A stretch of DNA of 64,000 nucleotides from an uncultured Pelagibacteraceae bacterium (GTDB lineage Bacteria > Pseudomonadota > Alphaproteobacteria > Pelagibacterales > Pelagibacteraceae): the NCBI GenBank assembly GCA_902546765.1, contig CACCLG010000003.1:1-64000 (forward strand), read 5' to 3'. Each line of letters begins with the position of its first letter. Positions within the stretch are counted from its first letter, which is position 1. Positions 8,013 to 44,287 of the stretch are shown here, piece after piece. The notes under the pieces were generated by a model, which did not search any database, was not told where the DNA came from, and saw only the letters and a list, made by a program, of their open reading frames with translations. The position numbers and the translations under genes are program-made.

Positions 8013-8041
8013 TTAAGTTTTATAATAAATTGTGTTATAAA
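8013..8041 (+). promoter_or_regulatory. Predicted promoter of the gcvTHP riboswitch transcript
   Basis: An extended -10 element TGTTATAAA (TG at 8033-8034, hexamer TATAAA at 8036-8041) predicts transcription starting near 8047-8049, which is where the first pairing strand of the glycine riboswitch begins. A weak -35 candidate (TTAAGT, 8013-8018) lies 17 bp upstream. The agreement between the predicted start and the RNA boundary supports the call; it is otherwise hexamer matching only. Confidence 0.5.
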
Positions 8042-8045
8042 TCTG

Positions 8046-8200
8046 TTACGGGAGAGACTACTTAATGTAGCGCCGAAGGAGCAAATACCCAATAATCTCT
8101 CAGGCAAAAGGACCGTACGTATTAACTCTGGAAAGAGATTAAGTTCTCGCCGAAGGAGCAAAACTCTCAGGCAACAAGACAGAGGGGTTTAAAGAGTTAA
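8046..8200 (+). ncRNA. Tandem glycine riboswitch upstream of gcvT
   Basis: Two glycine aptamers in a row. Aptamer 1 runs about 8047-8117: P1 pairs TACGG (8047-8051) with CCGTA (8113-8117), and the core holds GCCGAAGGAGCAA and TCTCAGGCAAAAGGAC. Aptamer 2 runs about 8126-8184: P1 pairs CTCTG (8126-8130) with CAGAG (8180-8184), with a second GCCGAAGGAGCAA and CTCTCAGGCAACAAGAC. The RNA leads directly into gcvT. Glycine binding typically turns on glycine cleavage genes. An alternative pairing of TTAACTCT (8122-8129) with AGAGTTAA (8193-8200), one base before the gcvT ATG, could be the expression platform. No terminator hairpin with a T run is visible, so control of translation is more likely. Confidence 0.95.
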
Positions 8201-8201
8201 T

Positions 8202-9305
8202 ATGATTAAAAAAACACCTTTATACAATTTACATATCCAACACGGTGCAAAAATGGTTGAGTTTGCAGGTTATCAAATGCCTATTCAATATAAGAGTGGA
8301 ATAATCCAAGAACATAAATTTACTAGAGAAAATGCTGGTATATTTGATGTGTCACATATGGGACAGCTATTTATTAGTGGCTCAAATCAGCTTACAGATG
8401 ATCTTGAAAAAATATTTCCGATCAATTTAAAAAATTTAAAGACAAATCAAAGTAAATATTCTTTTTTAATGAACGACCAGGGAGGAATATACGATGATTT
8501 AATAATTACAAAATTAAAAGATGGTTACTTAATTATTTTAAATGCAGCATGTAAAAGCCGAGATTTTGAAATTATTAAAAAAAAATTAGAAAATAAATAT
8601 GAACTTAATTTAGATGAAAGCCTATCTTTAATTGCAATACAGGGTCCAAAAGCAAAAAATGTATTGGGAAAAGTAGTTTCAAAAATAACTAATCTTAAAT
8701 TCATGAATGGAGAAGAATTTGAATATGATAGTTCAAATATTTATATAACAAGATCTGGTTATACTGGTGAAGATGGTTTTGAGGTATCTTTAGAAAATGA
8801 AAAAGCTGAAAAATTTGTTAACCAATTAATTAATTATGGCGCTAAACTTATAGGACTCGGTGCGAGAGACACATTAAGATTAGAGGCTGGATTATGTTTA
8901 TATGGTAACGACCTTGATGAAAAAACAAGTCCGATTGAAGCAAACCTTAAGTGGGCAATACCAAAATCACGAGTTAATACTTATTATCCTGGTTCAGATA
9001 TTATAAAAAAACAAATTGATGACGGAGTAAAAACTTTAAGAGTTGGTATCAAACCTGAAACAAGAGTAATAGCAAGAGGAAATACGAAAATTTTTGATCA
9101 AAATGATAAAGAAATAGGTAAAGTTACAAGTGGTACATTTGGACCAAGTGTTGAGTGTTCAATTGCAATGGGGTATGTTGAAAATAATTACTCACCAACA
9201 AATACAAAAATCTTTTTAGAAGTTAGAGGAAAAAAAATTCCAGCAAATGTTTGTGATTTACCATTTTATAAAAAAAACTATGTAAAAGGAGAAAAAAATG
9301 TCTGA
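8202..9305 (+). CDS. gcvT: Glycine cleavage system T protein (aminomethyltransferase)
   Basis: Transfers the aminomethyl carbon from lipoyl-GcvH to tetrahydrofolate, releasing ammonia and 5,10-methylene-THF. The 367-residue protein starts [20 protein letters not shown] and contains [33 protein letters not shown] and [14 protein letters not shown], all typical of GcvT. The start ATG at 8202 follows the riboswitch; there is no strong ribosome-binding site, but AGAG (8193-8196) sits in the strand that can be masked by the riboswitch. Its stop overlaps gcvH by 8 bases. Confidence 0.96.
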
Positions 9306-32833: not shown

Positions 32834-32877
32834 TTATTGATCTTTATTAAAAAGATATATGACTTATATTTAATTTG

Positions 32878-33477
32878 ATGAGCGAAAACAATGTTTTGCC
32901 AGTCATATTAGCTGGTGGAAAATCAAGAAGGTTTGGTGGGAATAAAGCAAATGCCAAATTGGGAGATTTAACTTTAATCGATCATACAATTCAAAAACTT
33001 AAGAGTAGATTTAAAGAAATTTTAATCATCTCAAATGAGGAAAGTAACAAAGAAATAAGCAATGTTTTTTACTCAAATGATGTTATGGATGGACAGTTAG
33101 GACCTTTAGTTGGTGTTCTATCTTCAATGGAATGGATAATAGATAATTCAAAAAATTATAAGTGGATTATGACATTTCCTTGTGACACACCTTTTTTCAA
33201 AATTGAAATTATTGATCAAATGATGACCGCTCAAAGACACTCTAGTAAAAAATTATTTTTTTTAAAAAGTGGTGAAAAAAGACACAATATTTTTGGCTTA
33301 TGGTCAGCGGAGCTTAAAGATCAATTAAGAAAAGACTTAGAAGGAGGGGATAGAAAAGTTGAAGATTGGGCTAATAAAATTGGAACAGAAATAATTGAAT
33401 TAGATCCTAAAGACGATAATAGTTTTTTAAACATAAATACTAAAATAGATTTAGAGGAAGCGTCTAAAAAAATATGA
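32878..33477 (+). CDS. mobA: Molybdenum cofactor guanylyltransferase
   Basis: Attaches GMP from GTP to molybdopterin to make the guanine dinucleotide form that formate dehydrogenase needs. The 199-residue protein has the nucleotide-binding signature ILAGGKSRRFGGNKA, MDGQLGPLVGVLSSM and FPCDTPFF. I start at ATG 32878 (MSENNVLP), not the TTG one codon upstream. The gene's -10-like TATATT lies close to the start. The stop overlaps the moeA start as ATGA. Confidence 0.92.
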   Translation: MSENNVLPVILAGGKSRRFGGNKANAKLGDLTLIDHTIQKLKSRFKEILIISNEESNKEISNVFYSNDVMDGQLGPLVGVLSSMEWIIDNSKNYKWIMTFPCDTPFFKIEIIDQMMTAQRHSSKKLFFLKSGEKRHNIFGLWSAELKDQLRKDLEGGDRKVEDWANKIGTEIIELDPKDDNSFLNINTKIDLEEASKKI

Positions 33478-34715
33478 ATTCTTATAAAGCAGCTATAGGT
33501 AAATTGAATAACAATTCATTAAAAATCGGCAGTGAAATTGTTTCAATAAAAGATGCTTTAAATAGAATATCGAGCGAAGAGGTAATTGCTAAATCTGATT
33601 ATCCTGCTGATGATAATACAGCGTTCGATGGTTTTGCAGTAAATTCAAAAGAAACAAAAAATACATTTCAAAAGTTTAAAATTCTTAAAACTATTGCAGC
33701 AGGGGACAACCCTTATATTAAAAAAGTTTCAAAATTATCATGTATTGAGGTAATGACTGGTGCAATTATTAAAAAACCTTTTGATACCATTATTCCAATT
33801 GAGGATATTGAGTTTTTTCCAAGTAAACAAAATGCAAAATATATAATTATTAATAAAAAAATAAAAAAATCAGAATTTATTAGACCAAAAGGCTCAGATT
33901 ATAAAAAAGGAAATAAAATAATTAGAAAAGGAGAATTAATAAATCCTGCTCATATCTTATCTTTAAAAACGTTAGGTATAGATAAAGTCTTAGTTAAAAA
34001 GAAAGTAAATATAGTCTTTTATCCATCAGGAAATGAATTATCTGATAAAAAAAATATACCATCGTGGAAAATAAGAAATTCAAATACAATTTATTTAAAC
34101 TCTTTGATCAAAAGTTTACCCGTAAATTTTACAATTCAAAAAATCTTAAGAGATAAAGATCAAAAATTATTTAAAGAACAAATATCCAAACAATTAAAGT
34201 CTAAAACAGACATCTTAATTACTTCTGGAGCCGTCTCTAAAGGAAAATTTGATTTTATTCCGAGTATTATTAATCAATTTAAACTTAAAAGTCACTTTAA
34301 AGGAGTTGCAATTAGACCAGGAAAACCAATCATGTTTGCAAAATTTAATAATAACAAATGTTTTTTTGGTTTACCAGGCAATCCCATTTCCTCAGTTGCT
34401 TGTTTTAGATTTTTTGTAATTCCGTTGTTATTTAAATCTTTAGGTTTAAAAGTAGAAAAGCCAATATTTGCAAAACTAAAAAATAAATTTTCCAAAAAGA
34501 AAAAATTTACAAGATTTGTTAAAGGAAAAATAAGTTTTGACAAAAAAGGGTTTGTACAATTTGAGGTATTTGAGGGACAAGAGTCTTATAAAATCGAGCC
34601 TTTTGTTAAATCTAACGCTTGGGGTGTATTTAAAGATGGTGTTTCAGTATTCAATAAAGGAAATTTAATATATGTTTACTCAGCATCAGGTCTAAATGAA
34701 TTTTTGATCAACTAA
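33474..34715 (+). CDS. moeA: Molybdopterin molybdotransferase
   Basis: Inserts molybdate into adenylylated molybdopterin. The 413-residue protein shows the N-terminal YPADDNTAFDGFAVNS motif, EVMTGAIIKKPFDTIIPIED, ITSGAVSKGKFDFIPSII (a variation of the usual GGVS), AIRPGKPIMFAKFNN and FGLPGNPISSVACFRFFV. The gene forms a two-gene operon with mobA. No modABC molybdate transporter is in the window. The next gene begins 45 bp later and may have its own promoter. Confidence 0.93.
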   Translation: MNSYKAAIGKLNNNSLKIGSEIVSIKDALNRISSEEVIAKSDYPADDNTAFDGFAVNSKETKNTFQKFKILKTIAAGDNPYIKKVSKLSCIEVMTGAIIKKPFDTIIPIEDIEFFPSKQNAKYIIINKKIKKSEFIRPKGSDYKKGNKIIRKGELINPAHILSLKTLGIDKVLVKKKVNIVFYPSGNELSDKKNIPSWKIRNSNTIYLNSLIKSLPVNFTIQKILRDKDQKLFKEQISKQLKSKTDILITSGAVSKGKFDFIPSIINQFKLKSHFKGVAIRPGKPIMFAKFNNNKCFFGLPGNPISSVACFRFFVIPLLFKSLGLKVEKPIFAKLKNKFSKKKKFTRFVKGKISFDKKGFVQFEVFEGQESYKIEPFVKSNAWGVFKDGVSVFNKGNLIYVYSASGLNEFLIN

Positions 34716-34760
34716 TCGTATTTTCTTGTCTCAAATTTAAAATAAGATTAATAATTCGGG

Positions 34761-35666
34761 ATGCTCGATCTAAAAAATCCAAAAGTTGCAATACCAATAG
34801 TTCTTTTTGCTGGACTGTTATGGTCTTTTGGACCTTATGTTGTAAGGCATATTGATCAACCCCAGTTAGTTCCTTGGCAATATTTATTTACAAGGGGATT
34901 AGTAATATTCATTCTATTAAATCTTTATCTATATTTTGAAGAAGGATTAGATTTTTATAAAAACTACTTTAAAGTTGGTATTTCTGGTATTTTAGGCGGC
35001 ATTGGATTGGGCACAGCTATGATGACTTTTATATGGTCAATCACAAATACTAGTGCTGCAGTAACCCTTTTATGTTTAGCTGCAATGCCATTTATAACAG
35101 CGTTGTTAGGGTTTTTATTTTTAAGAGAAAAAATTTCACTTACAGTTTGGGTGGCAATTTTAGTTGCAACATTTGGAATTGTTGTAATGGCGTTTGGAAC
35201 AGGTGAAAAAAACTCTCTTCCGGGTCTTGTCTTTGGTTTAGCATCTGCTCTTGGATTTTCTGTTTTTTCTGTAACCTTGCGTTGGAGAAAAGAAACACCT
35301 AAATTTACAACAGTAGCAATTGCAGGTTTATTTTGTTTTCTATTTTCATCGATAATGTTGATTTTAAATGATAGCCAATTTTTATCTTCTAGTAAAAATG
35401 AAGCTTTGTTTGCAACTCATGGAACTTTAGTTTGTGCAGGTTTGATACTATACTCAATTGGTTCAAAAAATATTCCTGCCGCCGATTTAACCTTGTTATC
35501 TTTGACAGAAGTAATTGGAGGAATATTTTGGGTTTGGTTACCATGGCTTGGTATCAATGAGGTTCCAGCAACAAACACAATTATTGGTGGTTTTTTTATA
35601 TTTATTGCAATTTTCTATTACAGCATGATCATGCAATCCAATAGAAGGTTTATTGGTTTAAATTAA
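34761..35666 (+). CDS. EamA/DMT-family transporter at the head of the creatinase operon
   Basis: A 301-residue membrane protein with about ten helices in two EamA repeats; the first ends with FLFLREKISLTVWVAILVAT and the second has LTLLSLTEVIGGIFWVWLPWLG, the DMT signature. It starts 45 bp after moeA and only 6 bp before the creatinase gene, so it probably shares that transcript and moves a guanidino compound, amino acid or product such as urea or ornithine; the substrate is not visible in the sequence. Confidence 0.85.
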   Translation: MLDLKNPKVAIPIVLFAGLLWSFGPYVVRHIDQPQLVPWQYLFTRGLVIFILLNLYLYFEEGLDFYKNYFKVGISGILGGIGLGTAMMTFIWSITNTSAAVTLLCLAAMPFITALLGFLFLREKISLTVWVAILVATFGIVVMAFGTGEKNSLPGLVFGLASALGFSVFSVTLRWRKETPKFTTVAIAGLFCFLFSSIMLILNDSQFLSSSKNEALFATHGTLVCAGLILYSIGSKNIPAADLTLLSLTEVIGGIFWVWLPWLGINEVPATNTIIGGFFIFIAIFYYSMIMQSNRRFIGLN

Positions 35667-35672
35667 TTTTTT

Positions 35673-36890
35673 ATGGAAAGACCAGATTTTTTTGAATTAA
35701 ATAATGGTGAAAAAGTAAAACTTCCCTTTTCAGATAAAGAGTACAAAAATAGAGTATCGAAACTTAGAGAAGTCATGTCGGATAATAACATGGATATGGC
35801 AATTCTAACTTCGATGCATAACATTGCTTATTATACAGGGTTCATTTATTGTTCATTCGGAAGACCATATGGATGTGTAGTCACAAAAGATAAAATAGTT
35901 ACTATTTCTGCAAATATTGATTCAAGTCAACCTTGGAGAAGATCACATTGTAATAACGTAATATATACTGATTGGAAAAGAGATAATTTTTTAAAAGCTA
36001 TTGTATCTATAATTGGAAGAAATGATCCTCCAAAAACAATTGGAATTGAAAATGATCATGTAACTTTAGATATAAAAGAAAAATTAAACTCTATATTTAG
36101 CATCGCGATTTTTAAAGATATTTCAAAGAATTTAATGAAACAAAGAATGATCAAATCAGATGAAGAGATTTCAATAATTAAAAACGGTGCTCGTATTGCT
36201 GATTTAGGTGCTGAGGAAATTGTAAAACACATAAAACCTGGTCAATCGGAATTAGAGATTGCAATAGCAGGAAGAGATAAAATGGAGAGGGAAATAGCAA
36301 AGTCTTATCCAGATGCGGAATATATGGATACGTGGGTTTGGTTTCAGTCAGGCATTAATACAGATGGAGCGCATAATCCAAAAACAAATAGAGCATTACA
36401 AAATGGAGATATATTATCTTTAAATACTTTTCCAATGATCTCAGGTTACTACACTGCTTTAGAGAGAACATTATTTGTAAATGAAGTTGATGATGCATCT
36501 CTAAAGGCTTGGGAAGCAAATGTAAAAGTTCACAAACGTGGATTAGAATTAATCAAACCAGGTGCAAAATGTTCTGAAATTTGTGAGGAGTTAAATAATT
36601 TATTTGCTGAATTAGGTTATCTTCAATATCGAACGTTTGGTTATGGTCATTCATTTGGAATGCTTTCACATTTTTATGGAAGAGAGGCAGGATTGGAACT
36701 GAGAGAGGATACTGATACTGTTCTTGAAAAAAACATGGTGATATCAATGGAACCTATGATTATGATCCCCGAAGAAAAGCCTGGTGCAGGTGGATATAGA
36801 GAGCACGATATTTTAGTGATCAAAGAAGATGGCGCAGAAAATATTACTAAATTTCCGTTTGGACCTGATCATAATATTATAAAAAATTAA
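35673..36890 (+). CDS. Creatinase-like amidinohydrolase (M24 fold)
   Basis: A 405-residue protein that closely matches the creatinase pattern as I remember it from Pseudomonas: TSMHNIAYYTGFIYCSFGRP, ISANIDSSQPWRR, YTDWKRDN, DTWVWFQSGINTDGAHNP and GYYTALERTLF, ending AENITKFPFGPDHNII. Phe62 and Arg64 of the creatine carboxylate pocket fall at the same numbers, and the catalytic His is at 234. Creatinase hydrolyses creatine to sarcosine and urea; guanidinoacetate or a related compound is also possible. The aminopeptidase metal ligands of the fold look lost, as in creatinase. Directly abuts the amidinotransferase gene (stop then ATG). Confidence 0.85.
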   Translation: MERPDFFELNNGEKVKLPFSDKEYKNRVSKLREVMSDNNMDMAILTSMHNIAYYTGFIYCSFGRPYGCVVTKDKIVTISANIDSSQPWRRSHCNNVIYTDWKRDNFLKAIVSIIGRNDPPKTIGIENDHVTLDIKEKLNSIFSIAIFKDISKNLMKQRMIKSDEEISIIKNGARIADLGAEEIVKHIKPGQSELEIAIAGRDKMEREIAKSYPDAEYMDTWVWFQSGINTDGAHNPKTNRALQNGDILSLNTFPMISGYYTALERTLFVNEVDDASLKAWEANVKVHKRGLELIKPGAKCSEICEELNNLFAELGYLQYRTFGYGHSFGMLSHFYGREAGLELREDTDTVLEKNMVISMEPMIMIPEEKPGAGGYREHDILVIKEDGAENITKFPFGPDHNIIKN

Positions 36891-38003
36891 ATGTCAGATA
36901 AAGTAATTGTAAATAGTTGGAATGAATGGGATCCATTAAAACATGTAATAGTTGGACGTGCTGACGGGACTTGTATTCCTGCTCCCGAACCAGCTTTAGA
37001 TGCAAAAGTTCCTGAAGATAGTGATATGAGAGGTCAGTTTGGCCCAAGAACAAAAGACACTGTTGATAAAGCAAATGAACTTCTAGATAATTTTTCATCC
37101 ATACTAGAAAAACGTGGAATTAAAGTTGATAGACCAACGCCTTTGGACTTTAATCAACCTACTTCAACACCAGATTGGAAGGCTGAAACAATGTTTGGAT
37201 GTATGCCGCCAAGAGATGTTTTGCTTACAGTTGGGAATGAAATTTTAGAAGCAACTATGAGTTATAGATGCAGATGGTTTGAGTATCTTTGTTACAGACC
37301 TCTATTAAAACAGTACTATAATGAAGATCCTAATATGAGACATGAATCAGCTCCAAAACCAAGATTAACAGACGCAGATTATAGAAAAGATTATTTATCA
37401 GATAAAATTGGAGTACAAAAAAGACTTGAGTGGACTGAGCAAAAGTATTTTGTAACAACTGAGGAGGAACCATTGTTTGATGCCGCCGATATTTTGAGAT
37501 TTGGAAAAGATTTAGTAGTTCAACATGGTTTTACAACAAATTTAAAAGGAATTGATTGGATTAAAAGACATTATAAGGATCATAGAGTTCATGCAGTAAA
37601 TTTTCCAGGCGATCCTTATCCAATCCATATTGATGCAACTTTTACACCAATTAAAGAAGGATTAATTATTAATAACCCACAAAGAAGATTGCCTAAAGAT
37701 CAAAGAAAATTATTTGAGGATAATGGATGGGAAATTTTAGATAGTGCACAGCCAGCTCATAATGAACCACCTCCACTTTGTTATTCTTCAACTTGGCTAT
37801 CTATGAATGTTCTTGTTCTTGATCCAAAGACAGTTTGTGTGGAGAAAAGTGAAATTTATCAGGCAGAACAATTAGATAAATTAGGTATGGAAGTTGTACC
37901 TGTTGAACTTAGGGATGCTTATGCATTTGGAGGAGGTCTTCACTGTTGTACTGCAGATGTATACAGAGAAGGAAAATTAAAAGATTACTTTCCTAAACAA
38001 TAA
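36891..38003 (+). CDS. Glycine amidinotransferase-like protein
   Basis: A 370-residue amidinotransferase of the AGAT/StrB1 type, which moves an amidino group from arginine to an amine such as glycine, giving guanidinoacetate and ornithine. Motifs resemble animal AGAT: NSWNEWDPLKHVIVGRA, DVLLTVGNEILEA, FDAADILRFGKD with the catalytic Asp, PIHIDATF with the His, and the nucleophilic Cys in FGGGLHCCTADV (Cys352). It abuts creatinase and overlaps the threonine aldolase start (TAATG). No guanidinoacetate methyltransferase is in the window. Confidence 0.87.
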   Translation: MSDKVIVNSWNEWDPLKHVIVGRADGTCIPAPEPALDAKVPEDSDMRGQFGPRTKDTVDKANELLDNFSSILEKRGIKVDRPTPLDFNQPTSTPDWKAETMFGCMPPRDVLLTVGNEILEATMSYRCRWFEYLCYRPLLKQYYNEDPNMRHESAPKPRLTDADYRKDYLSDKIGVQKRLEWTEQKYFVTTEEEPLFDAADILRFGKDLVVQHGFTTNLKGIDWIKRHYKDHRVHAVNFPGDPYPIHIDATFTPIKEGLIINNPQRRLPKDQRKLFEDNGWEILDSAQPAHNEPPPLCYSSTWLSMNVLVLDPKTVCVEKSEIYQAEQLDKLGMEVVPVELRDAYAFGGGLHCCTADVYREGKLKDYFPKQ

Positions 38004-39049
38004 TGGCAACGATTAAAACAAAAAGAGATAGAGTAAAATTTGCATCTGACAATGTTACAGGAGCATGTCCAGAAGTATTAGATGCTATTTTAAAAGCTAA
38101 TGATGGAGATAGAACTCCATATGGTAATGACGATCTCTCAAAAAGTTTACAAGATAAATTTTCAGAAATATTTGAAAAAGAAGTAATTATTTTTCCAACA
38201 TCCTCAGGAACTGCAGCTAATGCACTTGCGTTATCTACAATGACACCTTCATTTGGAAACATTTATTGTCATAGACTTTCACATATCAATGTGGATGAGT
38301 GTGGAGCTCCAGAATTTTATACAGGTGGAGCAAAATTAGTTAATCTTAATGGAATAAATGGAAAAATTACAGCTGAAGAACTTAACAATTCAATAGGTGG
38401 AAAAGGAATTGTCCATCATACACAACCCTCATCTGTAAGTATCACACAACTATCCGAAACTGGAGAAGCTTATAATTTAGATGAAATTAAAAATATTTCT
38501 GAAGTAGCTCATAAACATAAACTTAATATACATATGGATGGAGCTAGATTTGCTAATGCTTTAGTCTCATTAAATTGCAGCCCAGCAGAAATGACATGGA
38601 AATCAGGCATCGATGTACTTTCATTTGGAGCAACAAAAAATGGATGTTTAGCAGCAGAGGCAATAATTTTTTTTAAGCCAGAATTAGTTGGTAATTTACC
38701 ATTTTTAATGAAAAGAGCAGGGCATTTACTATCAAAAATGAGTTTTGTCTCCGCACAATTAGATGCATACATTACAAATGATGTTTGGATAAAAAACGCT
38801 AAACACGCAAATGCAATGGGAAAAAAATTAAGCCAAGGTTTAGAAAAGCATAAAAATATAAAAATTGCATATCCAACGGATGCTAATGAGGTGTTTGTCA
38901 AAATGCCTAAAGATATAATTGATCAACTTAATTCAGAAGGCTACACCATAAACGATGATGAGTGGGATGGTAATGCGGTTAGATTAGTAACAGCATGGAA
39001 CACAGATCCAAGTGATATTGACACTTTTTTAAAATATATTAAATCTTAG
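38003..39049 (+). CDS. Low-specificity threonine aldolase
   Basis: PLP enzyme of the threonine aldolase/beta-eliminating lyase family, 348 residues. It splits L-threonine or L-allo-threonine to glycine and acetaldehyde, or the reverse. Seen are FASDNVTGACPEVLDAI, DDLSKSLQDKFSEIF, SSGTAANALALS, HMDGARFANALV and the PLP-lysine region SFGATKNGCLA. As the third enzyme of the operon it links a guanidino/glycine pathway to acetaldehyde; the aldehyde dehydrogenase at 24347 could remove that product, though it is in another operon. The stop is adjacent to that of the next, convergent gene. Confidence 0.9.
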   Translation: MATIKTKRDRVKFASDNVTGACPEVLDAILKANDGDRTPYGNDDLSKSLQDKFSEIFEKEVIIFPTSSGTAANALALSTMTPSFGNIYCHRLSHINVDECGAPEFYTGGAKLVNLNGINGKITAEELNNSIGGKGIVHHTQPSSVSITQLSETGEAYNLDEIKNISEVAHKHKLNIHMDGARFANALVSLNCSPAEMTWKSGIDVLSFGATKNGCLAAEAIIFFKPELVGNLPFLMKRAGHLLSKMSFVSAQLDAYITNDVWIKNAKHANAMGKKLSQGLEKHKNIKIAYPTDANEVFVKMPKDIIDQLNSEGYTINDDEWDGNAVRLVTAWNTDPSDIDTFLKYIKS

Positions 39050-39277
39050 TTAGCTTGGATTTTCCTTTAAAAATTCAATATACTTAATTACATCATCTAA
39101 TTGATCATCAGGTATATCTTTGTAACTGGCATTAAATTTACTTTTTACACAAATTGCAACATGAGCATAGGGGTTTCTACCCTTAGGGTGATTTGGATGA
39201 TCAGGTAATTGTCCCACCAAATAATCGCCAGCTTCCTTAATCAAAGTCCAGAGTTTACGCCGATTTTCTTCGTCCAT
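39050..39277 (-). CDS. Small hypothetical protein
   Basis: A 75-residue soluble protein: MDEENRRKLWTLIKEAGDYL, then the Pro/His-rich QLPDHPNHPKGRNPYAHVAI and a C-terminal acidic, helical part ending IKYIEFLKENPS. No family recognised. The DHPNHPKGRNPYAH segment looks like a conserved turn, possibly metal or nucleotide binding. It ends immediately beside the threonine aldolase stop on the opposite strand. Codon use matches neighbours, which supports a real gene. Confidence 0.6.
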   Translation of the reverse strand: MDEENRRKLWTLIKEAGDYLVGQLPDHPNHPKGRNPYAHVAICVKSKFNASYKDIPDDQLDDVIKYIEFLKENPS

Positions 39278-39325
39278 AGCCTACTAACCTTGATTTATCT
39301 CGAAATGATCTAGTCTATGATCTAG

Positions 39326-39583
39326 CTACATTATTTTCTCAAGTTTCCAAGCTTCATCTTTAGCATTAAATTTTGCGTTCCAGTCTTTAGATCTTTGATC
39401 TTCAAATAAGGCATAAAATTTTTCTTCATCAGTGACATTTGCAATAAAAATCATTTTACCTTCACGAATGTGCGCCCATTCAAATGATGATGTACATTTT
39501 GCAAGATCATCTTTAAACATACTGTATAATTCATCTGCATCTTTTTTAGTTCCTTCATACGTTGTTGTTCCAACAAAGTTCAT
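39326..39583 (-). CDS. Small hypothetical protein
   Basis: An 85-residue protein, MNFVGTTTYEGTKKDADELY then SMFKDDLAKCTSSFEWAH and IREGKMIFIANVTDEEKFYA, ending EAWKLEKIM. Its length and alternating strand/helix pattern resemble small ferredoxin-fold (dimeric alpha-beta barrel) proteins, but I do not recognise the family. A ribosome-binding site (AAAGGAAAA) precedes the ATG on the minus strand. It lies in a divergent arrangement with the hydroxyacid dehydrogenase. Confidence 0.6.
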   Translation of the reverse strand: MNFVGTTTYEGTKKDADELYSMFKDDLAKCTSSFEWAHIREGKMIFIANVTDEEKFYALFEDQRSKDWNAKFNAKDEAWKLEKIM

Positions 39584-39641
39584 AGTTTTTCCTTTCTTTA
39601 ATTAATTGAATTAATTTAATAAATTTTCCTTAATATTTTAG

Positions 39642-39647
39642 TATAAT
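39642..39647 (+). promoter_or_regulatory. Predicted -10 element for the hydroxyacid dehydrogenase gene
   Basis: Perfect TATAAT at 39642-39647, 9 bp before the ATG at 39657. A start 7 nt past the hexamer would leave a leader of 0-4 nt. No convincing -35 and no ribosome-binding site between it and the ATG. Confidence 0.45.
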
Positions 39648-39656
39648 AATTTATAA

Positions 39657-40682
39657 ATGACTAAAGATAAAATTAAAATTCATGTAAGAAATAATCATTG
39701 GAAAAAAGGATCTTTGCCTTGTGACTTAGAAGGCGAAAAAAACAGCAGTGTTACAAAAGATTTGTTTGAAAGTAAATTAAGCAAGTATCCTGGAATAAAA
39801 GATAAAATTTCATATTTAATTGATTGGGATGATGATAATTGGAAATCGTCAATGAAAGATGCCGATATCCTACTTGCATGGAATTTTCCAACAAAAGCTT
39901 TAAGTAAAATTGCACCTAAATTAAAATGGATTCACATTGTATCAGCTGGAGTTAATCATCTCTCTCCATTTAATTGGGTTAAAAAAGATTTAGTTTTAAC
40001 TAATAGTAGAGGAATACAAGCAAAAAAAGCTGGTGAATTTGGATTAATGAGTATTTTGATGCTTCAAAACCAAATGACAAGAATTATTACTAATCAAAAA
40101 CAAAAAGACTATGTCACTTTATTGAGCAACCCAATTGAAAATAAACATGTTGTAGTAGTTGGAACTGGTTCATTAGGAGGTTCAATGATTAAACATATCA
40201 GTTCACTAGGTGCAAATGTAACCGGTGTTAATAGACGAGGTAGAAATGTTGATGGATGTTCAAAAGTTATTAAATTTGATAAAATTGATGAAGTTTTACC
40301 TGATGCTGATTTTCTTTATTTAGCAGTTCCTGAAACTAATGAAACAAAAGGAATGATAAACAAAAAAAGGTTAGATGCTTTAAAACACACATGTGGAGTT
40401 GTTAATATCGGACGTGCATCTGTAATGGATTATGAGCATTTAAGAAAAAAATTAAAAAAAAATGAAATTTCTGGAGCTGTTTTAGATGTTTTTTCAGAAG
40501 AGCCTATAAAAAGAAATTCTAAATTTTGGGATACTCCAAATTTGGTAATAACTCCTCATATATCTTCAGATAGTAAAGGAAAGTACATAGAAATGGTTTT
40601 AGAAAAATTTTTAACAAACTTAACATTATTTATTGATAAAAAAGATTTAATTAACCAAGTAGATCCTGATCTAGGATACTAA
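39657..40682 (+). CDS. D-2-hydroxyacid dehydrogenase family protein
   Basis: A 341-residue NAD(P)-dependent dehydrogenase with the D-isomer-specific fold. The Rossmann motif is VVVGTGSLGGSMIK; the catalytic triad is Arg in GRASVMD, Glu in DVFSEEP and His in TPHISSD. The N-terminal domain is less conserved. It probably interconverts a 2-oxoacid such as glyoxylate or hydroxypyruvate and the hydroxyacid; the substrate is unknown. A single-gene unit under a probable own promoter. Confidence 0.88.
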   Translation: MTKDKIKIHVRNNHWKKGSLPCDLEGEKNSSVTKDLFESKLSKYPGIKDKISYLIDWDDDNWKSSMKDADILLAWNFPTKALSKIAPKLKWIHIVSAGVNHLSPFNWVKKDLVLTNSRGIQAKKAGEFGLMSILMLQNQMTRIITNQKQKDYVTLLSNPIENKHVVVVGTGSLGGSMIKHISSLGANVTGVNRRGRNVDGCSKVIKFDKIDEVLPDADFLYLAVPETNETKGMINKKRLDALKHTCGVVNIGRASVMDYEHLRKKLKKNEISGAVLDVFSEEPIKRNSKFWDTPNLVITPHISSDSKGKYIEMVLEKFLTNLTLFIDKKDLINQVDPDLGY

Positions 40683-40695
40683 TACTTCGATTATT

Positions 40696-41001
40696 TTAGG
40701 ATATTATTTTATTTTTTTCATTATCCACAATAACTGGACTTTCATAATATGTGATTTCTGGCTTAGAGTATCTCTCAGTAATCCACTTAATTCTATCTTC
40801 ATCGAACCATTTTTTGGCAAACTCTATTTTGGTAAAAGTATAAACACCACCGGCATAACCTTTCTCAATGTCTGCTATATAATTTTTTCTCAATAATCCT
40901 TCAACGTCTACATATAACGTAGAAGTTTCGATAAACTTTTCTTTTAGAGTTTTTAAATTAAGTTCATTAGATATTTTAAATTTAACTAATACTGTAATCA
41001 T
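40696..41001 (-). CDS. Putative monooxygenase, YdhR-like small protein
   Basis: A 101-residue protein in the dimeric alpha-beta-barrel group, resembling YdhR-type putative monooxygenases: MITVLVKFKISNELNLKTLK, VEGLLRKNYIADIEKGYAGG and VYTFTKIEFAKKWFDEDRIK. The spacing of a GLLRK and GYAGGVY motif is typical of that group. No catalytic residues are established for the family. The convergent hydroxyacid dehydrogenase ends 13 bp away. Confidence 0.7.
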   Translation of the reverse strand: MITVLVKFKISNELNLKTLKEKFIETSTLYVDVEGLLRKNYIADIEKGYAGGVYTFTKIEFAKKWFDEDRIKWITERYSKPEITYYESPVIVDNEKNKIIS

Positions 41002-41060
41002 TATTTCTTAACTTTTTAATTTATGTAAATGTTTACTCATCTTTTTTCAAATTTTTATTT

Positions 41061-41546
41061 TTAATCTCTAAAGTTAACAAAATCTATAGGAAGGCCAATA
41101 TCTATTGCTTTTATTGCAGTAATTGCCTCCTGAAGATCATCTTTTTTTTTGCCATCCACTCTTAATTCTTCTCCTTGTATTTTTATTTGAATTTTGAGTT
41201 TCATTTTTTTTACATCAGCAATAATTTTTTTTGCATTATCTTGGCTAATCCCTTCTTTTAACTCACTTGTTTGTCTAATTGCTCCTCCAGATGCGCCCTC
41301 AGAACTTTTAATATCAAACACTCTTGGATCTACTTTTCGTCTTATAAGATGAGTTTGTAATAATTCATTTACTTGCTTTAATTTAAGCTCATCAGGAGCA
41401 AGAGTGGTCACATTTTTTTCTTTTCTCTCTATTGTTATTTGAAGCCCTTTAAAATCATAACGATTTCCAATTTCTCTTAAACAATTAGCAAGAGCGTTGT
41501 CAAACTCTTGATAGTTTATTTTACTTATCACATCAAATGAAGGCAT
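41061..41546 (-). CDS. YajQ family nucleotide-binding protein
   Basis: A 161-residue YajQ (UPF0234) protein: MPSFDVISKINYQEFDNALA, ISREIGNRYDF-like NCLREIGNRYDFKG, then the C-terminal IQIQGEELRVDGKKKDDLQE and PIDFVNFRD. YajQ proteins bind nucleotides, and in Xanthomonas bind cyclic di-GMP, though a signalling role here is not shown. Lies 18 bp after the small membrane protein gene on the same strand. Confidence 0.92.
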   Translation of the reverse strand: MPSFDVISKINYQEFDNALANCLREIGNRYDFKGLQITIERKEKNVTTLAPDELKLKQVNELLQTHLIRRKVDPRVFDIKSSEGASGGAIRQTSELKEGISQDNAKKIIADVKKMKLKIQIKIQGEELRVDGKKKDDLQEAITAIKAIDIGLPIDFVNFRD

Positions 41547-41564
41547 ATTTAATATTTTTAAATT

Positions 41565-41753
41565 TTACTTTCTTTTAGCTCTAGTTTCTTCGTTTATTTG
41601 TCTTCCATATTCTCTGATTTGCATTCTCTCAATAGCTTCAGACTCTTTTGTTTTATCTTCAGTTTTCTTTTTTCTAGAATAATAGATTGGTAAAACAATT
41701 GATAATATGACTATAAATATAGCTAAAATAATTTGCCAAGTTTCCATGATCAT
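41565..41753 (-). CDS. Small single-pass membrane protein
   Basis: A 62-residue protein (60 if the second Met at 41747 is used) with one N-terminal transmembrane helix (WQIILAIFIVILSIVLPIYY) and a basic, charged cytoplasmic tail (SRKKKTEDKTKESEAIERMQ). Function unknown. Upstream of yajQ on the minus strand, divergent from the iron alcohol dehydrogenase with a 35 bp gap. Confidence 0.6.
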   Translation of the reverse strand: MIMETWQIILAIFIVILSIVLPIYYSRKKKTEDKTKESEAIERMQIREYGRQINEETRAKRK

Positions 41754-41760
41754 ATATTCT

Positions 41761-41766
41761 TATAAT
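41761..41766 (+). promoter_or_regulatory. Predicted -10 element for the iron alcohol dehydrogenase gene
   Basis: Perfect TATAAT (41761-41766), predicting a start near 41773 and a leader of about 16 nt that lacks a Shine-Dalgarno sequence. The -35 region is not clear. It lies in the 35 bp divergent gap next to the small membrane protein gene. Confidence 0.4.
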
Positions 41767-41788
41767 TATTCAAATAATCAATTTAAAA

Positions 41789-42955
41789 ATGCAAAAAACT
41801 AATTGGAATTATCCGACAACAATGTGGGTAGGCCAAGATAGAATTAAAGATCTTAGTGTTGCTTGTAAAAATTTAGATATAAATAAGCCCTTATTAGTAA
41901 CTGATAAAGGTCTTGCTGGCTCAGATATTATTCAAAATAGTTTATCTAACTTAAAACAAAATAGTTTTGAGGTTATTTTATATTCAAATGTAGTTGGAAA
42001 CCCAACGGGCACAAATGTAAATCAAGGTGTTGAAATTTACAGAAAAAATAACTGTGATGGTGTCATTGCCTTTGGTGGAGGAAGTGGACTTGATGTAGGC
42101 AAAGCTGTTGCTTTTATGTCAGGTCAAGATTTACCAATTTGGGATTTTGAAGATGTGGGAGATAATTGGACAAAAGCTAAGTCAAATAGCATTGCACCAA
42201 TTATTGCAGTTCCAACCACAGCAGGCACTGGATCAGAGACAGGAAGAGCATCGGTTATTTTAAATGAAGATACTGGAGTTAAAAAAATAATTTTTCATCC
42301 AAAGTTTTTACCTTCGATAGTGATTTTAGATCCATTATTAACGATTAGTTTACCTCCAGATATAACAGCCGCAACTGGAATGGATGCATTAGCTCACAAC
42401 TTAGAAGCTTATTGTTCCCCAGGTTATCATCCAATGGCAGATGGAATTGCATTAGAGGGTATAAGAATTATTAATAATTGGCTCTTAGCTGCAGTTGAAG
42501 ATGGGTCAAATATTGAAGCTAGAATGAATATGTTAACTGCTGCAAGTATGGGATCTACTGCATTTCAAAAGGGACTTGGTGCAATTCACTCATTAAGTCA
42601 TCCAGTAAACGCATTAAATAATATTCATCATGGATTATCTAACGCAATCTTTATGCCTTATGTTTTGACATTCAATAAAAACGTAATTGAAAAAAAAATT
42701 GTTAAAATCTGTGAATATTTAGAGTTTCAAAATAAAACATTCGATGAATTTTTAAATTGGACATTAAGTTTGAGGAAAAAACTTAATATTCCTCACAAAC
42801 TTTCAGATGTAATAGAATTAGAAAAAATTGATATTGATCGCCTATCAAAAATGGCTTTAGATGACCCGTCAACTAATGGAAACCCAAAAAAACTGTCATT
42901 AGCGGATATGAAGGTTATGTATGAATACAGTATTTCAGGAGAACTATTTAAATAG
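41789..42955 (+). CDS. Iron-containing alcohol dehydrogenase
   Basis: A 388-residue group III alcohol dehydrogenase. NAD-binding GGGSGLDVGKAVAF and TTAGTGSETGRASV; metal-ligand regions GMDALAHNLEAYCSPGYHP and IHSLSHPVNALNNIHHG, with several His. It oxidises alcohols, aldehydes or related compounds; methanol, ethanol or lactaldehyde-type substrates have all been reported in the family. Monocistronic, with own promoter. Confidence 0.9.
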   Translation: MQKTNWNYPTTMWVGQDRIKDLSVACKNLDINKPLLVTDKGLAGSDIIQNSLSNLKQNSFEVILYSNVVGNPTGTNVNQGVEIYRKNNCDGVIAFGGGSGLDVGKAVAFMSGQDLPIWDFEDVGDNWTKAKSNSIAPIIAVPTTAGTGSETGRASVILNEDTGVKKIIFHPKFLPSIVILDPLLTISLPPDITAATGMDALAHNLEAYCSPGYHPMADGIALEGIRIINNWLLAAVEDGSNIEARMNMLTAASMGSTAFQKGLGAIHSLSHPVNALNNIHHGLSNAIFMPYVLTFNKNVIEKKIVKICEYLEFQNKTFDEFLNWTLSLRKKLNIPHKLSDVIELEKIDIDRLSKMALDDPSTNGNPKKLSLADMKVMYEYSISGELFK

Positions 42956-43002
42956 TTAACTTCTGAAATTTATCTGCTTTTCAATTTTATTTTAGTTATA
43001 AC

Positions 43003-43830
43003 TTAATAATTACTTTTTCGACTAGCACCTTTATAAAAAATTTCTTGAAGATTATCGTTTTCTTGTTTTTTAATTTTTATATCTTTTTCATTTAACAATG
43101 ATTTTGGCCTTCCTATTTTTTTATGAAAATTAAATTTATCTTCTCCTCTTGCCAATTGAACACTATTTTTTCCTATCACTTGTTTTACATTGCTTCCTAT
43201 ATAACTTTGAATTACAAAACCTATCCTTCTATCATTACTCTTATTAATACCAGATCCATGAACTGTTTTTGGATGATGTAAAGACATTTGTCCTGCAGAC
43301 AGTATTAACGCCTTTGTTTCTTTTTTTGGAACATCATTCACTGTTTGACCTCTAGTCAAAAGATTTCCCTCATTAAATTTTTGATCATGGTCTTTGAGGT
43401 TATCTTTATGAGATCCCGACCACATTCTCATACATCCATTGTGTTCATTTGAGTCTGTTATAGCAACCCATGCAGTAACCCAATTATAAGGCTCTAATCC
43501 AATGTACTTTGCATCCTGATGATAACTTACAAATCCTTTTTCCTTTGGATTTTTTATAAATAACGTTGTCCCACAAACTAGAATATCTTTGCCAATTAAG
43601 GATTGTACTGCATCTAATATTTTTGAATTGTGCGTTAATTCATCAAGCAAAGGGGAGATAAGATGTGCATTGTATCTTCCTGCTTTTTCTAATTCTCCAG
43701 GCAATCTTTTTTCAATAGTTTCAATTTCATTTCTAATTTCTTTTGCTTTGTCTTTTGAAAAAATATTTATAGGCGAAACAAACCCCTCATCCTTGTATTG
43801 TTGAAGTTGATTTGAGGAAAGATAAGTCAT
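43003..43830 (-). CDS. Phytanoyl-CoA dioxygenase (PhyH) family protein
   Basis: An Fe(II)/2-oxoglutarate oxygenase. The iron ligands are HxD in SYHQDAKYIG and the distal His in HHPKTVHGSG; a 2-oxoglutarate Arg follows in NDRRIGFVIQ. I start at ATG 43830 (MTYLSSNQLQQYKDEGF), which fits the family; a longer frame to 43881 would overlap the divergent MOSC gene. Family members include PhnY-type phosphonate oxygenases and others; the substrate is unknown. An HD-domain protein with PhnZ-like ligands lies 7 kb away at 50677. Confidence 0.85.
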   Translation of the reverse strand: MTYLSSNQLQQYKDEGFVSPINIFSKDKAKEIRNEIETIEKRLPGELEKAGRYNAHLISPLLDELTHNSKILDAVQSLIGKDILVCGTTLFIKNPKEKGFVSYHQDAKYIGLEPYNWVTAWVAITDSNEHNGCMRMWSGSHKDNLKDHDQKFNEGNLLTRGQTVNDVPKKETKALILSAGQMSLHHPKTVHGSGINKSNDRRIGFVIQSYIGSNVKQVIGKNSVQLARGEDKFNFHKKIGRPKSLLNEKDIKIKKQENDNLQEIFYKGASRKSNY

Positions 43831-43840
43831 ACTATTTTGA

Positions 43841-44287
43841 ATGCCTGAAGTTATTAAAATTGGAATTACAGAAAAAAACAATCAAAAAATTCAAGAAGTT
43901 AAAACAGTTAAAGTAATTGCAAATCAAGGCATAGTAGGGGATAGGCATTTCAAAGAATTTAACGACCCATTTAATCAATTATCTCTAATAGAGTCTGAGA
44001 ACATTGATTATTACAATATTAAATACGGTTTAAATATTCCATATATAGATTTTAGAAGAAATATAATTACCAAAGGAATTAAACTGAACGATTTGGTTGG
44101 AAAAAAACTAAAAATTGGATCTGTTGAAGTTGAGGGTATGGATTTATGTAGACCCTGCAGACATCTTAATGAGTCATTAAATCAAGATAATGTTTTAAAG
44201 GAATTTTTAAGAAAAGGTGGTCTTAGATGTCAGATTTTAACATCTTCAAGTATAAATATTGGAGATAAAATTGAGGTTCTAGATTAA
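43841..44287 (+). CDS. MOSC domain protein
   Basis: A 148-residue MOSC protein (Moco sulfurase C-terminal-like domain): GIVGDRHFKEFNDPFNQLSL, VPYIDFRRNI-type IPYIDFRRNIITKGI, and the Cys motif MDLCRPCRHLNESL. MOSC proteins bind molybdenum cofactor or deliver sulfur. It belongs to the Mo theme of the window although it stands 9 kb beyond moeA. Ten bp separate it from the divergent PhyH gene. Confidence 0.88.
   Translation: MPEVIKIGITEKNNQKIQEVKTVKVIANQGIVGDRHFKEFNDPFNQLSLIESENIDYYNIKYGLNIPYIDFRRNIITKGIKLNDLVGKKLKIGSVEVEGMDLCRPCRHLNESLNQDNVLKEFLRKGGLRCQILTSSSINIGDKIEVLD

Follow-up and report, generated by a model that had tools for sequence, protein, structure and literature searches.

A transporter–amidinotransferase locus with optional creatinase and aldolase genes in SAR11 bacteria

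Gene content of the locus

SAR11 bacteria count among the ocean's most abundant cells, and they depend on glycine and reduced organic compounds from outside. We analyzed a 64,000-nucleotide stretch of DNA from an uncultured Pelagibacteraceae bacterium (contig CACCLG010000003.1, positions 1 to 64,000; “the window”), in which four co-directional genes, with intergenic gaps of 6, 0, and −1 bases, encode an EamA/DMT-family transporter (DMT), a creatinase, an L-arginine:glycine-type amidinotransferase (AGAT), and a threonine-aldolase-type pyridoxal phosphate (PLP) enzyme (Table 1). In the genus of the window, the core of this locus is the DMT–AGAT pair, with creatinase and aldolase as separate optional inserts in two slots. 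We give an even chance to the reading that it is a modular glycine- and nitrogen-salvage locus for guanidino acids.

The open reading frames (ORFs), families, coordinates, and gaps that an initial annotation of the window had given for the four genes were all confirmed. The same annotation had stated that guanidinoacetate methyltransferase (GAMT) is missing, which holds for the neighborhood: no methyltransferase family suggestive of GAMT matched any of ten neighboring genes (positions 33474 to 43881), a search that was not genome-wide. Nor did the family scan recognize a tailoring enzyme within the four-gene run. The source genome, 65% complete, is assembled into 37 contigs totaling 983,920 bases; the nearest named AGAT loci, with AGATs 98–99% identical, are from uncultured Pelagibacteraceae, that is, SAR11.

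Table 1. Genes of the four-gene run and the two genes preceding it (positions in the window)
Gene	Product	Position	Strand	Basis
DMT	EamA/DMT-family transporter, 301 amino acids	34761–35666	+	Pfam EamA
Creatinase	Creatinase (creatine amidinohydrolase), 405 amino acids	35673–36890	+	Pfam Creatinase_N + Peptidase_M24; PDB 7yto/1chm/1kp0
AGAT	L-arginine:glycine-type amidinotransferase, 370 amino acids	36891–38003	+	PDB 1jdx; weak Pfam ADI match
Aldolase	Threonine-aldolase-type PLP enzyme, 348 amino acids	38003–39049	+	Pfam Beta_elim_lyase; PDB 1v72, 7yvr
MoeA	Molybdopterin molybdotransferase, immediately upstream of DMT	33474–34715	+	Family scan
MobA-like ORF	Precedes MoeA	32875–33477	+	Named from reading the sequence; relatives keep the order

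Distribution and modular inheritance

The survey comprised 121 genomes, the source genome included; many are incomplete, so that absences are soft. AGAT was detected in 99 of them, comprising 58/73 from the window's genus and 41/48 from the sister family; of the near-complete genomes, 22/24 have it. Creatinase was detected in 23 (always at an identity of at least 81%) and the aldolase in 24. Both accessory genes keep close to AGAT: creatinase adjoins it in 22/23 genomes (the exception is G075), and the aldolase lies directly after it in 22/24 (the exceptions are G004 and G120), eight of these 22 having creatinase as well and 14 being without it. The initial annotation had treated creatinase and AGAT as a pair working in one pathway, which the counts of 23 and 99 out of 121 do not support, with 76 of the 99 AGAT genomes having no detected creatinase.

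Among 80 named loci, which are the closest AGATs rather than a random sample, DMT lies upstream of AGAT in 78, either directly or across creatinase, and the remaining two end at contig edges. Of the 80 loci, 39 have creatinase in the DMT–AGAT gap and 57 have the aldolase after AGAT. The spacing is kept throughout: where present, creatinase is less than 30 nucleotides upstream of AGAT on the same strand (39/39), and the aldolase is within 40 nucleotides of AGAT in the same direction (57/57). Of a further 57 AGAT loci, 32 have DMT upstream, one ends at an edge, and 24 are without DMT; these 24 are from the sister family (most of them, together with those outside the order), genomes outside the order, and G004.

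On a tree of AGAT (137 rows, with 71 of the 116 inner branches weak), creatinase requires at least 6–7 changes and the aldolase at least 14–15. The named loci carry neither insert in 3 cases, only the aldolase in 34, only creatinase in 15, and both in 20, and the corresponding numbers in other loci are 8, 9, 9, and 4. A link between creatinase and aldolase was rejected: the named loci show a negative association (p = 0.0009), the others a non-significant one (p = 0.28). Taken as one set, as they were at first, the four genes therefore fare unevenly: the DMT–AGAT linkage stands in this genus, but there is no co-inherited block and no positive association between creatinase and aldolase, which counts against a four-gene pathway.

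The separate gains and losses, together with the variable genes downstream of the locus among relatives, would also suit another explanation, namely that unrelated accessory genes with no shared pathway have gathered in a variable island beside DMT–AGAT. We think this rather improbable, because the inserts keep to the same two slots, with one orientation and the close spacing given above, and because a creatinase 58–59% identical to that of the window is found near AGAT in another family too. At one locus (G005:C7:21907–22951), the post-AGAT aldolase is split into two overlapping matches, both interrupted by a stop, and may be a decaying copy.

The creatinase, MoeA, and urea

The second gene of the run is, by sequence, a true creatinase. 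Comparison with the PDB places the protein, with its Creatinase_N and M24 domains, among the creatinases and not with prolidase or DoeA: E-values are 3e-156 to 9e-147 for the solved creatinases 7yto, 1chm, and 1kp0, against 3e-26 for the next best family and 2e-10 for DoeA. It shares with creatinase EC 3.5.3.3 (1chm, 7yto) 230 of 398 aligned positions (counted against 1chm) and the equivalents of all seven residues that we take to form the active site (F62, R64, H232, E262, R335, E358, and H376), that is, the Phe62 and Arg64 on which the initial annotation had relied and five more. These seven are invariant wherever the alignment covers them in 101 creatinase rows of more than 55% identity (overlapping loci, not deduplicated; two rows are uncovered at 62 and 64). 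Phe62 and Arg64 alone were rejected as proof of a creatinase, other M24 rows having F62 in 6/6 and R64 in 3/6. To our knowledge, creatinases with this active site are strictly creatine-specific and refuse guanidinoacetate; the window's enzyme very probably acts on creatine. It differs from the known creatinases in the position of its gene, between a DMT transporter and AGAT, and in the rarity of urease: strong matches (E near 1e-56) occur in only two of the 23 creatinase genomes, many of which are incomplete (G022 and G050), with a weak match (1.5e-6) in G075 and none in the complete genome G012. Urea is therefore probably lost by most creatinase genomes.

A SAR11 creatinase for creatine is known in kind. 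Papers are cited here for particular passages or, where so stated, for their main text. Conversion of creatine to glycine in SAR11, with formate dehydrogenase, has been published (PMC3686209), and AEGEAN169 bacteria are credited with creatine use (PMC11366302). Salvage of external creatine or guanidinoacetate, the second of two models in the initial annotation, fits the creatinase. The published route and ours have in common the organism group, creatinase, and formate dehydrogenase, with the MoeA link (below) observed here; in contrast, the word “amidinotransferase” is found nowhere in the main text of PMC3686209, and the DMT–AGAT locus with its inserts is not in the passages cited. Terms beginning with “creatin” or “amidino” are likewise absent from the main text of a paper on SAR11 one-carbon metabolism (PMC3160333).

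Presence of creatinase tracks that of the upstream MoeA gene, which we report as a lead: of 71 named loci that could be scored, 68 are concordant (both in 34, neither in 34, MoeA only in 2, and creatinase only in 1), as are 26 of 29 others. When phylogeny is taken into account, only two independent pairs lie on well-supported branches, and the link is not significant. It makes sense because the methyl group of sarcosine ends in formate. A soxA-type gene (sarcosine oxidase alpha) was above the cut-off in all 10 genomes tested.

The other initial model was a glycine-primed arginase, in which AGAT would make guanidinoacetate from arginine and glycine, and creatinase would cleave it to glycine and urea. 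Creatinase and AGAT are indeed adjacent without a base between them, and a substitute for arginase is conceivable, the PF00491 proteins examined being nearest to guanidino-acid hydrolases and not to arginase. We nevertheless hold this model to be highly improbable: the two genes are not inherited together, all seven creatinase residues are retained, and in most creatinase genomes nitrogen would be discarded as urea. With AGAT mostly found without creatinase, albeit in genomes that are often incomplete, the model cannot be the general role of AGAT.

The amidinotransferase and the aldolase

AGAT matches human AGAT (PDB 1jdx) at an E-value of 6e-85, with 153 of 351 aligned positions identical, and has a weak match to the Pfam ADI family (24.1 bits; cut-off 22.8). 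The catalytic Asp, His, and Cys of the initial annotation are in place as Asp197, His246, and Cys352. They belong to a list of residues that we take to be the catalytic and arginine-site set, Asp109, Asp197, His246, Asp248, Arg265, Ser299, Ser300, and Cys352, equivalent to human Asp170, Asp254, His303, Asp305, Arg322, Ser354, Ser355, and Cys407. Across 202 AGAT locus rows (not deduplicated), the three catalytic residues are kept in all, and the equivalent of Arg322 in 198. These residues and the identity to the human enzyme are the likeness to GATM/AGAT and to cyanobacterial CyrA and AoaA; unlike in those systems, no GAMT-like or toxin gene was recognized alongside among the ten neighbors scanned.

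The aldolase belongs to the Beta_elim_lyase family, with 1v72 as the best solved relative (7e-111) and a match to 7yvr as well. It matches these L-threonine/phenylserine aldolases over nearly its full length, and differs from them in being an optional gene placed after AGAT. Threonine aldolases of this family release glycine, and so the position directly after AGAT hints at glycine as the partner of AGAT.

A second AGAT subfamily and the ureohydrolases

A second AGAT subfamily, with Tyr at the equivalent of Ser354, was found in two genomes, G004 and G025. In G025 (L084:509–8879; G025:C22), it precedes a DMT gene (DMTa) and genes for a 2-oxoglutarate oxygenase, an LLM monooxygenase, a thiamine pyrophosphate (TPP) enzyme, an AA_synth protein, a hydrolase, and an aldehyde dehydrogenase. 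Of the 14 other such clusters in the genus, six have a divergent PF00491 ureohydrolase at the AGAT position (for example L224:9422–19001; G022:C1), and the one that was tested is nearest to 3-guanidinopropionase. DMTa is present in 7/8 loci with either enzyme and in 0/8 lacking both (Fisher p = 0.0014, not corrected for relatedness). G025, which is 86% complete, has only one other PF00491 gene. G004 has its second-subfamily AGAT inserted in a cluster whose counterparts in G022 and G071 lack it. The second AGAT of G025 looks like a replacement for a ureohydrolase, which would favor removal of the amidino group, and catabolism of a guanidino compound is a possible role of the L084-type cluster.

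PF00491 proteins were present in 9/10 and 12/14 genomes in two surveys. One in G012 (L217) has 3-guanidinopropionase and guanidinobutyrase as its nearest PDB entries and adjoins an aldehyde-dehydrogenase-like ORF; its counterpart in the source genome, also beside an aldehyde-dehydrogenase-like ORF, lies on contig 14 (L220:909–3322). Another PF00491 protein of G012 adjoins ORFs that, by reading, are decarboxylase-like and deoxyhypusine-synthase-like. An argument from the arginase role, whether vacant or filled, was dropped either way, the two PF00491 proteins compared with the PDB being nearest to 3-guanidinopropionase.

AGAT neighborhoods in other lineages

The sister-family AGAT is flanked by a hydroxylase-like gene on one side and by mrd/mre genes on the other. 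Among 386 genomes sampled from the class, eight from outside the order match AGAT at 1e-60, in addition to three of the window's genus. The context was worked out in five of the eight (L192, L193, L195, L196, and L197); L194 and L199 showed no AGAT ORF. AGAT is near an opposite-strand creatinase in L192 (the 58–59% identical one, from another family), beside MttB-like and DmdA-like genes in L193, and beside serC–serA in L195; in L196 (785–10887, scanned) and L197 (by clustering), it is within a cluster resembling those for ectoine utilization. A fusion of FAD and GcvT parts with a GbcA-like Rieske protein is another neighbor. Glycine-yielding or demethylating enzymes thus recur near AGATs, though not everywhere.

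The L196/L197 cluster comprises EutA, EutB, EutC, a DoeB2-like protein, a DoeA-like M24 protein, and trans-3-hydroxyproline dehydratase, and adjoins succinate-semialdehyde dehydrogenase. In a genus of another family (g4; L093 and L097), the gene immediately after AGAT, on the same strand, encodes a distant M24 hydrolase with 21–22% identity to the creatinase.

Proposed function of the locus

From the gene order, the conservation, the active-site residues, and the separate inheritance of the modules, we infer the substrates, the direction of AGAT, and the cargo of the transporter as follows. The core would consist of the EamA-type transporter, which may carry guanidino acids, and AGAT, which would move the amidino group of guanidinoacetate (or a near relative) to ornithine in a reversible reaction, yielding glycine and arginine with no loss of urea. 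Creatinase, as one optional module, would convert creatine to sarcosine and urea; sarcosine would go to glycine via sarcosine oxidase and its methyl group to the one-carbon/formate route, the molybdopterin genes being adjacent. The aldolase, as the other, would free glycine from threonine or a similar β-hydroxy amino acid.

On balance, we lean slightly toward salvage over synthesis as the net direction of AGAT. AmtA works in both directions (PMC4887976), and the equilibrium constant of AGAT is reported to be 1.1 in vitro (PMC9950171). A more specific version is tentative: SAR11 AGAT may be a salvage enzyme with DMT as a dedicated importer, passing amidino groups from imported guanidino acids to ornithine and so keeping the amino acid and all nitrogen without urease, in place of ureohydrolases, with creatinase as an add-on for creatine, which AGAT could not use.

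Several observations weigh against salvage. AGAT had no match in 22 of the 121 genomes and in 2 of the 24 near-complete ones, nor at 1e-60 in either genome (99–100% complete) of a further genus within the family, and linkage to DMT is characteristic of the window's genus, the sister-family AGAT standing alone beside cell-shape genes. The exchange of ureohydrolase and AGAT was seen at a single locus, with the contig beginning 508 bases away, and concerns the second subfamily and not the window's AGAT; the two AGAT-linked DMTs share only 22% identity over 138 residues, and L225 has the ureohydrolase without DMTa, as well as without the LLM and TPP genes. No riboswitch was found at the locus in the five sources scanned, and its promoter and terminator patterns are no more numerous than in shuffles (33 versus 37.5 on average, and 2 versus 2.6). 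Glycine-making neighbors could equally feed AGAT for synthesis, the forward direction is depicted as preferred in PMC9950171, and the passages cited of PMC3160333 leave open how sarcosine oxidase and N-methylglutamate dehydrogenase are to be assigned to the two SAR11 soxBDAG operons. Finally, human Asn300 and Met302, said to matter for substrate binding (PMC4887976), are replaced by Tyr243 and Ile245, residues that recur in 186 of the 202 rows each, so that glycine as the acceptor is not assured.

Glycine-specific cyanobacterial amidinotransferases (AMDTs) carry Phe and Ser at these two positions (PMC3684758); Tyr243 and Ile245 therefore neither prove nor exclude glycine, and AGAT probably uses glycine/guanidinoacetate. 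An acceptor such as 4-aminobutyrate, β-alanine, or taurine, tied to the guanidinobutyrase/guanidinopropionase-like hydrolases of SAR11, is doubtful: it would account for acceptor positions unlike those of human AGAT, and the L217 protein with its aldehyde-dehydrogenase-like neighbor would suit it, but the cyanobacterial glycine users differ at those positions too, and AGAT has neighbors that yield glycine.

AGAT could also run forward, making a guanidino solute, guanidinoacetate or another, that is exported by DMT or kept as an osmolyte, with aldolase and creatinase supplying glycine or sarcosine. EamA proteins are often exporters, and the glycine-releasing aldolase sits right after AGAT in nearly all genomes that have it; the characterized AGATs are biosynthetic in the passages cited of PMC3684758 and PMC4887976. 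Synthesis for export is nonetheless unlikely, in that a urea-releasing creatinase and a streamlined genome are ill-suited to the export of nitrogen, the run contains no recognized tailoring enzyme, and the L084 cluster favors removal.

Read as salvage, the locus looks like a means of harvesting glycine and nitrogen from compounds that leak out of animals and plankton. AGAT in nearly all near-complete relatives, with its regular transporter partner in the genus, would make guanidino compounds (guanidinoacetate, creatine, and relatives) a standing source of nitrogen and glycine, and a true amidino salvage enzyme would give cells mostly without urease a urea-free route for guanidino nitrogen. The DMT–AGAT core with modular slots appears to be undescribed so far: nothing was found in the open-access literature on SAR11 AGAT, Pelagibacter guanidinoacetate, or AEGEAN-169 amidinotransferase, and none of the open-access titles found for glycine amidinotransferase together with creatinase concerns SAR11.

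Glycine riboswitch in the window

The glycine theme of the initial annotation, which had supposed a glycine-sensing organism, holds for the window at large, where a glycine riboswitch aptamer (65.9 bits) lies at 8039–8125, distant from the four-gene run. Control of the locus by a glycine riboswitch was rejected, this sole match in the five sources scanned being far off. The aptamer lies just upstream of an ORF (8196–9278) that matches the GcvT-like end of soxA.

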